From the NCBI GenBank assembly GCA_027296625.1, contig JAPUIX010000012.1, forward strand, positions 1 through 39,860: a DNA stretch of 39,860 bases. Reading direction: 5' to 3'. Source of the DNA: Gammaproteobacteria bacterium. GTDB lineage: Bacteria > Pseudomonadota > Gammaproteobacteria > JAKEHO01. The notes under the pieces were generated by a model, which did no database searches, was not told where the DNA came from, and saw only the letters and a program-made list of their open reading frames with translations. Both the position numbers and the translations under genes were made by a program. This document shows, piece after piece, positions 36,631 to 39,860 of the stretch; position 1 is the stretch's first letter, and the number at the start of each line of letters is the position of its first letter.

Positions 36631-38796
36631 ATGGTGACAGCCTACCGACAAGGGGCCAAAGCCCCCTTTTGGACCAAGCTCGCCGGCCTTCTCGTCGTGA
36701 TCGCAAGCTTCAGTGCTACCCCATTACATGCCGCGCCCCCCGAACCGGAACCCGACGCGCAGCCAACGCCTGCGGGGGAAACCGAACCGACAGTGCCTGA
36801 AGCACCCGCACCCGACCCAGCGCCCCCCCGCGTGCCACCCCCAGAGACCTCAGAGCCCGGCCTAGAAGAGACAGAAGAGCCAACGGAGGACCTTGGCGAG
36901 GCGGCCCCGGAGGGCCCAGAATCCTACATCGACCAGCTTATTGGCGAGGAGCTCACTGAGGAGGAGTTGGAAGCGCTGGATGCCGAGGAACTGGCCGTCC
37001 CTGGCGTCGGCAGGGAGTCCCTGACCATGGAATACCGCTTGTTTCACCAAAATATCACCGATATTGACCCCGAATTTGAAAACGGCCTGGCGGCCTTCTG
37101 GCGGCGCGAAACTGTGAACTACGGGCACCTCAGTGTGGATGTCTTGGGTAAATACGTCATCAATGACCTCAGGGAGGATGGCGAGAATCGCACCGGTGCG
37201 AGCTTTACCCTCCGACAGGACGAGTTTGCCCTGACGAATCGCTTGCTGATGGATAACTTCCTTGGGGATGCCCGCGCCGTCACCAATCCGCTCATGAGCC
37301 AAAGCTTCCGGTTTCAACTGCCCTCCTCCATCATCCGTGGCGGCAGCAGCGCCCTCTACAGCGACAAGACGGAATTTCGCGTCACAGGTGGCCAGGTCGG
37401 CCGCCTCGACGGCATCGCCACACCCACCTTTGAAAACCAGGGCGACACCCTCTGGGGGCTTGGCCTAACCCATGAGTTTGAGAAAAACATGAGTTTTGGG
37501 CTGCAGGGCTGGTCCTTGATCGACAACCCACAAATTCCCAATCACGAAAGCGTCGCTGGCGCCATCCAGTACGACAACGCCGAGGCCCGGCAACGTCACC
37601 AGTTGCATAGCCTCTATGACACCACGGGCAACTGGGGCGCGTGGTACGACGGCGACAGCTGGGTCAAGCGCTGGCGGCACCGCTATGGGCTGTTTCGCTT
37701 CGACCCCGGGCTCTTGTGGACCGACGTGCAGATCGTCAATGATCGCCAGGGGCTCTACTGGCGCGGTGAGAAGCGGACCTTCCGGCGTAACTGGAGCGCC
37801 GCTATCGACTATGTCGAGACCAACATTGACGCGGATCCAACGCTGGCCGGGCAAGAACTCTACACCGGCTTTCTCAGCACCGGCTGGCGCGTACGTCGCA
37901 AGACCCAGTTAGGCGGGATCGTGAATCTCGCTTTTCGGCGCCCCGGCGAGGGGCTGCCCTCGGATTCAACAGACGCCTATCGGGTGACGGGCTTTATCGA
38001 CCAGGGGTCCCGGTTCGGTCAGAGCCGCCTCCAGCTCGTCCTCGGTAAAACAATAAATGATCAGAATCCAGACATCGACAACTACCAGATCACCTGGGAC
38101 CAGGGTTGGGCGGTCCCGAGCACCCATCGCCTCGGTACCACCGTCTCCTATGAACGCGAGGAGGAAAACGGTGATAACACCGACCGCACGACGCTGCAAA
38201 GCACCTATGCCCGCGACATCACGGCCAACCTCAATGTCAATGGCAGCGTCAACTTCGTGATGGTGGACGGCGATACCGCAGGTGAGAACCGGGCGCTGAA
38301 CTTCAATTTCGGGCTCTTCTGGCAATTCTTCAGGAACTGGTCGGCGAACTTCTCCATCAACTACGACCGCAACGTCACAGAACCGCCTGCCGGGGCTCGC
38401 CTGACCCTGGAGGACACGCGCATATTCTTCACGCTGAGGCGCACCCAGGTCGGTGGCGGTGCGCCGCGGGTGTACGGGCGCCAAACCGGCGAGCATGGCA
38501 AGGGCCGCCTGGTGGGCCGGGTCTTTATGGATGAGAATCGTGACGGGCGGTGGCAGCCGAGCGAGCCGGGCATCCCAGGGCTGACCGTTTATCTGGACGG
38601 GCGTTTCGCAGGCCAGACGGACCCCGATGGCCGCTACGAGATCTGGCCGGTGGCCGCTGGCGAGCATCAGGTGTTTATTGCGCTCGAAGACGTACCGCTC
38701 CCCTGGGGGCTCGTGGAGGAAACACCGAGACGCTTCCAGGTCCTGGTCCGCGATGCCACCGAGATCGATTTCCCGCTGGTGAGGCTCGACCAGTAG
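36631..38796 (+). CDS. Secreted outer-membrane beta-barrel (usher-like) protein with C-terminal SdrD-B-like domain
   Basis: A 721-residue exported protein of no family I can name with certainty. The signal peptide is about residues 1-34 (hydrophobic LAGLLVVIASFSA, cleavage after PLHA). Residues 35-97 are Pro/Glu-rich and 98-121 form a very acidic helix. Residues about 126-615 are a long series of alternating, aromatic-rich beta strands like an outer-membrane barrel. From about 622 comes one SdrD-B/Cna-B-like domain, with the calcium-type loop D634-x-N636-x-D638 and EPGIPGLTVYLDG, then DPDGRYEI. Barrel size and the terminal Ig-like domain recall an usher, but the usual N-terminal usher domain is absent. 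The neighbouring PapD-like chaperone supports a role in surface-fibre assembly. No cysteines are evident in the mature protein. Confidence 0.75.
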   Translation: MVTAYRQGAKAPFWTKLAGLLVVIASFSATPLHAAPPEPEPDAQPTPAGETEPTVPEAPAPDPAPPRVPPPETSEPGLEETEEPTEDLGEAAPEGPESYIDQLIGEELTEEELEALDAEELAVPGVGRESLTMEYRLFHQNITDIDPEFENGLAAFWRRETVNYGHLSVDVLGKYVINDLREDGENRTGASFTLRQDEFALTNRLLMDNFLGDARAVTNPLMSQSFRFQLPSSIIRGGSSALYSDKTEFRVTGGQVGRLDGIATPTFENQGDTLWGLGLTHEFEKNMSFGLQGWSLIDNPQIPNHESVAGAIQYDNAEARQRHQLHSLYDTTGNWGAWYDGDSWVKRWRHRYGLFRFDPGLLWTDVQIVNDRQGLYWRGEKRTFRRNWSAAIDYVETNIDADPTLAGQELYTGFLSTGWRVRRKTQLGGIVNLAFRRPGEGLPSDSTDAYRVTGFIDQGSRFGQSRLQLVLGKTINDQNPDIDNYQITWDQGWAVPSTHRLGTTVSYEREEENGDNTDRTTLQSTYARDITANLNVNGSVNFVMVDGDTAGENRALNFNFGLFWQFFRNWSANFSINYDRNVTEPPAGARLTLEDTRIFFTLRRTQVGGGAPRVYGRQTGEHGKGRLVGRVFMDENRDGRWQPSEPGIPGLTVYLDGRFAGQTDPDGRYEIWPVAAGEHQVFIALEDVPLPWGLVEETPRRFQVLVRDATEIDFPLVRLDQ

Positions 38797-38809
38797 GCCC
38801 TTCTCCCCC

Positions 38810-39658
38810 CTATTCCAGCACGGCATCAATATTGATGCTGCCCCCGTCCCATTCGATGGGTCCCTTGAGCTTCATGGGCATCTTGAACGCAACCGCCTTA
38901 TCACTGTCTTCAATGTCCGCCGGCCAGAGCGGTATGGCCCGGGTCGCCCCGGGCAGGATGGGGGATGGCGAGACCACCAGGTCCAGCAATTGACCGTTGG
39001 CATCTTCGGCTTCCAGTAGCCCTGCCGGGCGTCCATGGGCATTGCCAGCGTTGTGAAAGACGGCCACCGGTACCGGGCGCCCGTCCACCTCTTGGAGGCG
39101 GACTTCCTGAAACTGAAGATTCGGCTTGGCATCGCCCACGCCCACATAGACGACTATTGCGATCTGGCCTGCGATGGGAAAGCGAATATCCCCCATCTCG
39201 GCGAAGATGTCGGCCTCCGGTGGCGGGGCCACCAGGATTGCAAAGCGGCACTCGCCGGCCGGGGCATCCGGTGGAATATGGACCTCAAAGCGGTAGTTTT
39301 TACGCCCCCCCGGGGGAAGCTTTAGACGGCGTCGTTCGATGCGCACCCAGGGACGGCAGCTGCCGGGCTGCAGGGCTTCGGGATGGATGATGATGCCGCC
39401 CTCCTTGTTGAGGTCCCAATCGGCAGTCCGCAACACATACTCCCCGATGTCATTGCCGGCATTGCCGATCTGCACCACCTCCCGAACCTTCTCACCGGGT
39501 TTGCCCTGCAACTCAAAACGCGGCGGCGAGATGATGGCGGCAAACTCGCCTGCAAACAGGGCCTCTGGGACCATGGACGCGGCCACCAGCAGCACCAGCG
39601 CTGCGATGCGGACCTGACACACGATTTCTGTTTTCAATTTAATCGACGTCGATCTCAT
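38810..39658 (-). CDS. PapD-like periplasmic chaperone
   Basis: A 282-residue protein with a signal peptide (about 1-37, ending ALFA) and two Ig-like domains of the pilus-chaperone type. Near the N-terminus is ISPPRFELQGKPGEKVREVV with R47, the position of the conserved chaperone arginine. The middle has CRPWVRIERRRLKLPPGGRK, matching the PapD F1-G1 loop region with its basic residues. A second domain starts near residue 175. C101 and C137 could form a disulfide. The ATG at 39658 overlaps the end of the upstream gene by 20 nt, suggesting coupling; a TTG at 39670 is an alternative. It converges with the beta-barrel gene, 13 nt between stops. Confidence 0.78.
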   Translation of the reverse strand: MRSTSIKLKTEIVCQVRIAALVLLVAASMVPEALFAGEFAAIISPPRFELQGKPGEKVREVVQIGNAGNDIGEYVLRTADWDLNKEGGIIIHPEALQPGSCRPWVRIERRRLKLPPGGRKNYRFEVHIPPDAPAGECRFAILVAPPPEADIFAEMGDIRFPIAGQIAIVVYVGVGDAKPNLQFQEVRLQEVDGRPVPVAVFHNAGNAHGRPAGLLEAEDANGQLLDLVVSPSPILPGATRAIPLWPADIEDSDKAVAFKMPMKLKGPIEWDGGSINIDAVLE

Positions 39659-39860
39659 AAATCGGGTCAAAACTGAGCGGCACCACTAAATCGCGGGAAT
39701 CAATATACATGGTAAAGTCGAAGATATCCGTCATCAGGGGTGCCGGGATCGGGCCTTCGAAGATCTGGTGGCGATTGCCCGCCACCACCGATCCATTGTT
39801 AAAGATGCCCTGCGTCTTCCACTCCAAGCGGATGGCGTTGGGGCTCCTCAAACCCCGGAT
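39639..39860 (-). CDS. Unknown protein, C-terminal 73 residues (5' part beyond the window)
   Basis: A minus-strand frame open to the right edge, ending with TAA at 39639-39641. The visible residues are beta-rich and acidic at the end (FDPIYEIDVD), with RLEWKTQGIFNNG and TDIFDFTMYIDSRDL. I do not recognise a family. It overlaps the chaperone start by 20 nt, so it is almost certainly coexpressed with it. A fibre subunit or other chaperone client is plausible but unproven. Confidence 0.55.
   Translation of the reverse strand: MRGLRSPNAIRLEWKTQGIFNNGSVVAGNRHQIFEGPIPAPLMTDIFDFTMYIDSRDLVVPLSFDPIYEIDVD

Follow-up and report, generated by a model that had tools for sequence, protein, structure and literature searches.

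At the right end of a 39,860-nucleotide stretch of DNA (the window) from a member of the gammaproteobacterial lineage JAKEHO01, contig JAPUIX010000012.1 of assembly GCA_027296625.1, we have characterized three genes that encode a large predicted outer-membrane barrel protein (P0001, forward strand), a chaperone-like protein (P0002, reverse strand) and a third protein (reverse strand). This locus is very probably part of a fibre-building surface cluster, and we consider it highly likely that it works like a chaperone–usher system for pilus assembly, in a divergent and minimal form. Judged from its model and sequence, P0001 is a reduced usher that keeps the pore and one C-terminal domain and has no N-terminal domain, plug or second C-terminal domain. 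The locus belongs to the chaperone–usher superfamily by descent of the C-terminal part of its barrel, and it stands outside the usher family as defined because these three defining domains were tested for and are absent. Loci of this type are widespread and apparently undescribed.

A first-pass annotation had proposed an undescribed branch of chaperone-assisted export, pointing to an exported 721-residue protein with a Pro/Glu-rich N-terminus and a single SdrD_B-like end domain, and to a convergent chaperone-like gene that overlaps a third gene. All of these features are present in the open reading frames (ORFs; Table 1), and the proposal itself is supported by a fold search, a controlled profile comparison, gene co-occurrence and neighbouring genes with a pilin fold.

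Fold of the barrel protein and its relation to ushers

Ushers are built from a 24-strand barrel, a periplasmic N-terminal chaperone-binding domain, an inserted plug and two periplasmic C-terminal domains (PMC3650583). An AlphaFold model of P0001, made with 35 relatives, has an overall predicted local distance difference test score (pLDDT) of 85, with values above 90 over most of residues 129-608 and below 50 for residues 1-96. It predicts 26 strands followed by one beta domain, so the earlier claim of a barrel survives. Among 350,542 PDB chains, the ten best matches of the model are all FimD/PapC ushers (E 5.8e-14 to 1.4e-9, about 660-707 columns) and the best non-usher has an E of 6.5e-8, which puts the top usher about six orders of magnitude ahead when the C-terminal domain is part of the query.

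Profile comparison with hhalign gave a concordant result. The barrel family matched a set of 15 ushers (probability 93.2, E 3e-7) and, more strongly, seven divergent 'bridging' ushers (probability 97.0, E 1e-10), which in turn matched the ushers (probability 99.4, E 1e-21), while the control barrels LptD and BtuB remained at probabilities below 1. These larger sets and controls replaced an earlier comparison with three 'archaic' usher-like barrels, which was set aside because that set was too mixed. The usher signal is carried by the C-terminal domain and the last strands: the C-terminal domain matched the bridging ushers with a probability of 96.9, and an alignment with FimD-type ushers places it at the usher C-terminal domain over 57 columns. 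This same domain matched Pfam SdrD_B at E=2e-4 (21.9 bits, under the Pfam cut-off of 29.7), and the SdrD_B model was matched by 13/13 barrel relatives scanned (best 7.7e-11). We rejected naming the barrel after SdrD_B, as the domain is widely shared and aligns with usher C-terminal domain 1.

The missing usher domains were looked for one by one. Neither P0001 nor any of 13 family members scanned matched the Pfam usher model PF00577 at E<=1. The model contains no plug-sized insert, its longest inter-strand stretch being 18 residues (216-233), and no second C-terminal domain beyond the single one at 624-718. The N-terminal chaperone-binding domain is absent from the family: residues 95-130 match nothing in ushers, and the shortest full-length relatives have only about 50-60 residues, signal peptide included, ahead of a short conserved box that precedes the barrel. 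The suggestion that an acidic segment replaces this domain was therefore right about the absence of the domain but not about its replacement, since the N-terminal parts of 46 relatives differ widely in length, composition and charge, and the acidic Pro/Glu-rich stretch is a trait of the lineage of the window only. What is conserved instead is the box, Y-x-D-x-x-[I/L/M], found just ahead of the barrel in 45/46 family members, with Y99 and D101 invariant across 35 sequences; it may be a docking or gating element. In three barrel relatives (L061:2751-5465, L056:10830-13634 and L045:9895-12213) the N-terminal part is long and, on visual inspection, resembles LysM.

Conservation of the gene set

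A search of 369 genomes of the same class with the chaperone profile found 13 genomes with strong matches, and in all 13 loci read, the window included, the barrel gene lies beside the chaperone gene, accompanied by pilin-like genes wherever the contig reaches far enough. Scanning the contigs of 84,980 species with the chaperone alignment yielded 44 loci. The barrel adjoins the chaperone in 40 of these, with pilin-like genes beside them, and in the four loci lacking a barrel the cluster sits at a contig edge. Carriers include isolates of Thiothrix, Variovorax, Ramlibacter, Pseudacidovorax, Xenophilus and Caenimonas. The contig scan gave no match when the single P0001 sequence was the query, and a plasmid search detected no relatives.

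In a genome of the same genus (L017) the locus is complete, with the convergent arrangement kept at 72% and 77% identity. There, pilin1 (205 amino acids, aa) is followed by a short pilin-like gene, by pilin2 (174 aa), by the third gene (164 aa) and by the chaperone gene, on which the barrel gene converges. As the arrangement is kept in this genome and far beyond it, chance does not account for it. Aminotransferase and TatD-like genes flank the locus in both L017 and the window. The window is the whole of one contig (C12) of a 2.42-Mb draft genome that is 97.7% complete, and the left end of another contig, C10 (L154, 1-1884), carries on the L017 gene order (L017:4525-6388); the gap between C12 and C10 beside the right end of the window thus spans the missing pilin genes. 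The pilin-like genes that the first-pass annotation had proposed to look for are found, and the barrel–chaperone pair is conserved.

Among the 40 loci with a barrel, its gene is convergent with that of the chaperone in 17 and on the same strand in 23. These layouts separate almost cleanly on a tree of the chaperone, with the window in a 21-row group of 20 convergent loci and one exception, and with L060_13081, in the other group, being a same-strand copy. There are two deep clades, one in which convergence is a stable trait and one in which the genes form an ordinary operon on a single strand. The split by clade indicates that the convergent orientation is old and stable rather than an accident of assembly; the earlier remark that the arrangement is unlike a usual operon holds for one clade but not for the other. 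In one genome, two copies of the locus are adjacent (L060:5856-16250), the first convergent and the second on a single strand. Relatives of the chaperone also occur as orphans, with no barrel nearby, beside maf-like genes in genomes of the same phylum outside the class of the window (L136:7865-8893, L137:7768-8622 and L140:8226-9254). A further orphan chaperone-like gene is followed by one for a 269-aa protein with a pilin-like end (L048:7614-9335), with no barrel in the stretch read.

Pilin-like subunits

Neither Pfam nor NCBIfam supplies a usable name for pilin1; a single weak NCBIfam match was to a 'Pam pilus' pilin (E 0.057), on which we found no paper. The 16 PDB entries that best match the predicted structure of pilin1 (pLDDT 89.8) are without exception Fim, Pap or Csu subunits, an exclusiveness that we regard as telling despite modest E-values. 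Its mature N-terminus has alternating hydrophobic residues (L48, F50, V52 and I54) and its C-terminal strand is conserved, both of which would suit donor-strand exchange. By hhalign, the two pilins are homologous to each other (probability 99.4). A WxL-domain origin of the pilins was considered and rejected as weak: neither has a Pfam WxL match, and the hhalign probabilities against the WxL domain are 45 over 33 columns for pilin1 and 0.2 for pilin2.

The chaperone and the third gene

Pfam gives no sign of the PapD-like character noted for P0002. There is no match to Pfam PapD_N in P0002, nor in any of 13 chaperone members at E<=1, and the likeness to PapD appears only in profile–profile comparison, where the family matches a FimC/PapD set with a probability of 75.3 (E 2.5e-5) over 186 columns that cover both domains. 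By sequence the chaperone is closer to the WxLIP proteins of Firmicutes. The only PDB matches of its profile are the Enterococcus faecium WxLIP structures 9i25 and 9i1y (E ~1e-4), WxLIP_PGBD (DUF916) is matched by 6/13 members (best 4.2e-5), and hhalign against WxLIP gives a probability of 97.2 over 176 columns, mainly in domain 1. A WxLIP-like frame, 61% identical to that of E. faecium, also occurs at 101986-102450 of CP069367.1, a record labelled as a Klebsiella pneumoniae plasmid, which may be mixed or misnamed.

In chaperone domain 2, the invariant R214 of the motif N-x-G-x-A-x-x-R aligns with Arg148 in the N-T-G-N-A-T-L-R of EcpB, the counterpart of a residue in the network that anchors the subunit carboxylate in non-classical chaperones (PMC4654587). 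We treat this alignment only as a lead because the overall match to EcpB is not significant (probability 10); the anchoring Tyr169 of EcpB aligns with a proline. Among 28 aligned members, position 51, the candidate counterpart of strand A Arg8 of FimC/PapD, is arginine in 22 and lysine in six, and no conserved lysine was found among the positions tallied in the 165-176 strand as a counterpart of Lys112. C105 and C141 are invariant in all 28 and possibly form a disulfide in domain 1.

The third gene matches the third-gene profile at E=4e-25, with a full-length copy at L017:8715-9209, and resembles nothing known. It was not found in some Thiothrix loci and is, for this reason, probably accessory.

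Proposed mechanism and alternative explanations

We propose that the small secreted subunits pilin1 and pilin2 would be held in the periplasm by the two-domain chaperone and handed to the barrel, which would polymerise and export the fibre through donor-strand exchange, in which each subunit would fill the groove of the one before it with its N-terminal extension. The remaining C-terminal domain, the Y-x-D-x-x-[I/L/M] box or both probably dock the chaperone, and a visible pilus may be the product. We advance more tentatively, at somewhat less than even confidence, a further proposal: that P0001 is a catalytic usher without an N-terminal docking domain or plug, in which the box and the one C-terminal domain recruit chaperone–subunit complexes with no need for handover from the N-terminal to the C-terminal domains, and that the chaperone links the PapD chaperones of Gram-negative bacteria with the WxLIP proteins of Gram-positive bacteria.

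Several observations weigh against a chaperone–usher interpretation. Pilus and export are predicted from genes and models, and the strongest sequence relative of the chaperone is WxLIP rather than PapD. The template modelling (TM) scores of P0001 to ushers are low (0.29-0.39) and the FimD translocation domain alone, a barrel-and-plug fragment, scores about like other large porins, so that the fold by itself is no proof of usher identity. The match of the barrel to ushers becomes weak once the C-terminal domain is removed (hhalign probability 21.6), and 26 strands are predicted rather than 24. For pilin1, the Foldseek E-values are modest (0.01-0.2) and the TM-score is low (~0.33).

The affinity with WxLIP could mean that the locus is the Gram-negative equivalent of the WxL/WxLIP surface complex of Firmicutes. 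In that case the chaperone-like protein would remain bound to small WxL-like proteins at the peptidoglycan, with the barrel serving to anchor or display the complex instead of exporting a fibre. The WxLIP matches of the chaperone listed above are as this explanation would have it, and a match of the N-terminus of one barrel relative to the FimV core (6.8e-6) suggests peptidoglycan contact in some members. We nevertheless consider it improbable, since the WxLIP match lies mainly in domain 1, the chaperone family has no C-terminal membrane helix of the kind that anchors WxLIP (PMC10599100), the pilins show little likeness to WxL domains, and the predicted pilin fold fits chaperone–usher pilins beside a barrel that is usher-related.

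Even less probable is a barrel unrelated to ushers, a large protein of the porin or receptor type that carries an SdrD_B domain, with which a separate system made up of the chaperone and the small proteins happens to travel. The weak match of the barrel without its end domain would fit such a protein, as would the hits to MtrB (6r2q), which has the top query TM-score (0.42) among the 50 matches listed, and to other porins (E ~1e-7). The lead of ushers once the C-terminal domain is included and the co-occurrence of the genes across two clades and two gene orders argue for a chaperone–usher relationship instead, and the even strand count would leave both barrel ends, and with them the C-terminal domain, on the periplasmic side, which is the usher arrangement.

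That the chaperone serves an ordinary usher elsewhere and its neighbourhood is incidental, as the first-pass annotation had allowed, draws some support from the Pfam usher that 6/32 carrier genomes also hold (a lower bound, because many genomes are drafts and Pfam may miss divergent ushers). It is nevertheless contradicted by the data, as no Pfam usher is found in the host genome or in 26/32 carriers and the barrel–chaperone pair is conserved wherever it could be checked.

Features of the locus

The barrel and chaperone genes are separated by 13 bp. For P0002 the likely start codon is the ATG at 39658, not the TTG at 39670. Only the final ~73 codons of the third gene lie within the window. Scans of the L017 locus for promoters and terminators gave results at or near chance level.

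Table 1. Positions of the genes and protein features at the right end of the window
Feature	Position	Strand	Basis
Usher-like outer-membrane barrel protein P0001, 721 aa	36631..38796	+	ORF, AlphaFold, PDB matches, hhalign
Predicted signal peptide, residues ~1-35	36631..36735	+	Hydrophobic stretch LAGLLVVIASFSATPLHA followed by APP; sequence only
Acidic Pro/Glu-rich segment, residues ~36-97, predicted disordered, not conserved	36736..36921	+	pLDDT <50, 46 relatives
Conserved box (Y-x-D-Q-L-I here), residues 99-104, which may serve in docking or gating	36925..36942	+	Family alignment
Predicted 26-strand beta-barrel, residues 129-608, no plug-sized insert	37015..38454	+	AlphaFold/DSSP
One beta domain at the C-terminus (SdrD_B/CarboxypepD_reg-like), residues 624-718, which aligns with usher C-terminal domain 1	38500..38784	+	Pfam, hhalign
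Predicted periplasmic two-domain chaperone P0002, 286 aa	38810..39670	-	ORF, hhalign, invariant residues
3' part of secreted protein of ~165 aa, cut by contig end; overlaps chaperone gene	39639..39860	-	Third-gene profile, L017 copy

Comparison with known systems

With the classical FimC/FimD and PapD/PapC systems the locus shares a chaperone, a large outer-membrane barrel with a C-terminal beta domain, subunits predicted to be immunoglobulin-like with an N-terminal extension, and the best PDB fold matches of both barrel and pilin. It differs from them in having no PF00577, PapD_N or fimbrial Pfam match, in the domains and predicted strand number of the barrel, and in a layout that is often convergent. 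Likeness to the archaic and alternative systems (Csu, Ecp and CFA/I) consists of the chaperone motif shared with EcpB and the Csu subunits among the top fold matches of pilin1, whereas the sequence match to EcpB is not significant and that between the barrel and EcpC is nil.

The bridging family (L051, L052, L141, L142 and L144-L146) is homologous to P0001 in the C-terminal domain and last strands, but the L051 and L052 proteins are larger (935-1069 aa), extend further at the N-terminus and match PF00577 weakly, and the chaperone adjoining L051 matches Pfam PapD_N above the cut-off. Divergent usher-like barrels were recorded at L051:4297-7104, L052:11769-14978, L141-L146 and L138:4794-7412 (the last by size and context only); those of L051 and L052 have a CarboxypepD_reg/SdrD_B-like domain at the C-terminus and score under the Pfam usher cut-off.

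The WxL/WxLIP clusters of Firmicutes are related through chaperone domain 1, homologous to WxLIP_PGBD. WxLIP is a Gram-positive protein anchored in the membrane by a C-terminal helix (PMC10599100), whereas P0002 carries a signal peptide, lacks a terminal helix and is partnered by an outer-membrane barrel; the chaperone has no DUF3324 match and the subunits are not detectably WxL domains. We found no paper describing the system in open-access text, which leaves its absence from the literature unproven.

Implications

In the textbook model of the usher, the N-terminal domain receives the chaperone–subunit complex, the plug seals the pore and the C-terminal domains provide a second binding site (PMC3650583). 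A widespread family that has no N-terminal domain or plug and only one C-terminal domain would reveal how little is required to assemble a fibre, and would offer a simple test system. The relationships of the chaperone suggest a shared origin of PapD-type chaperones and the WxLIP proteins of Gram-positive bacteria. Finally, current Pfam and NCBIfam names do not pick up the system, and many environmental bacteria thought to be without such fibres, such as Thiothrix, Variovorax, Ramlibacter and their relatives, may therefore make them.

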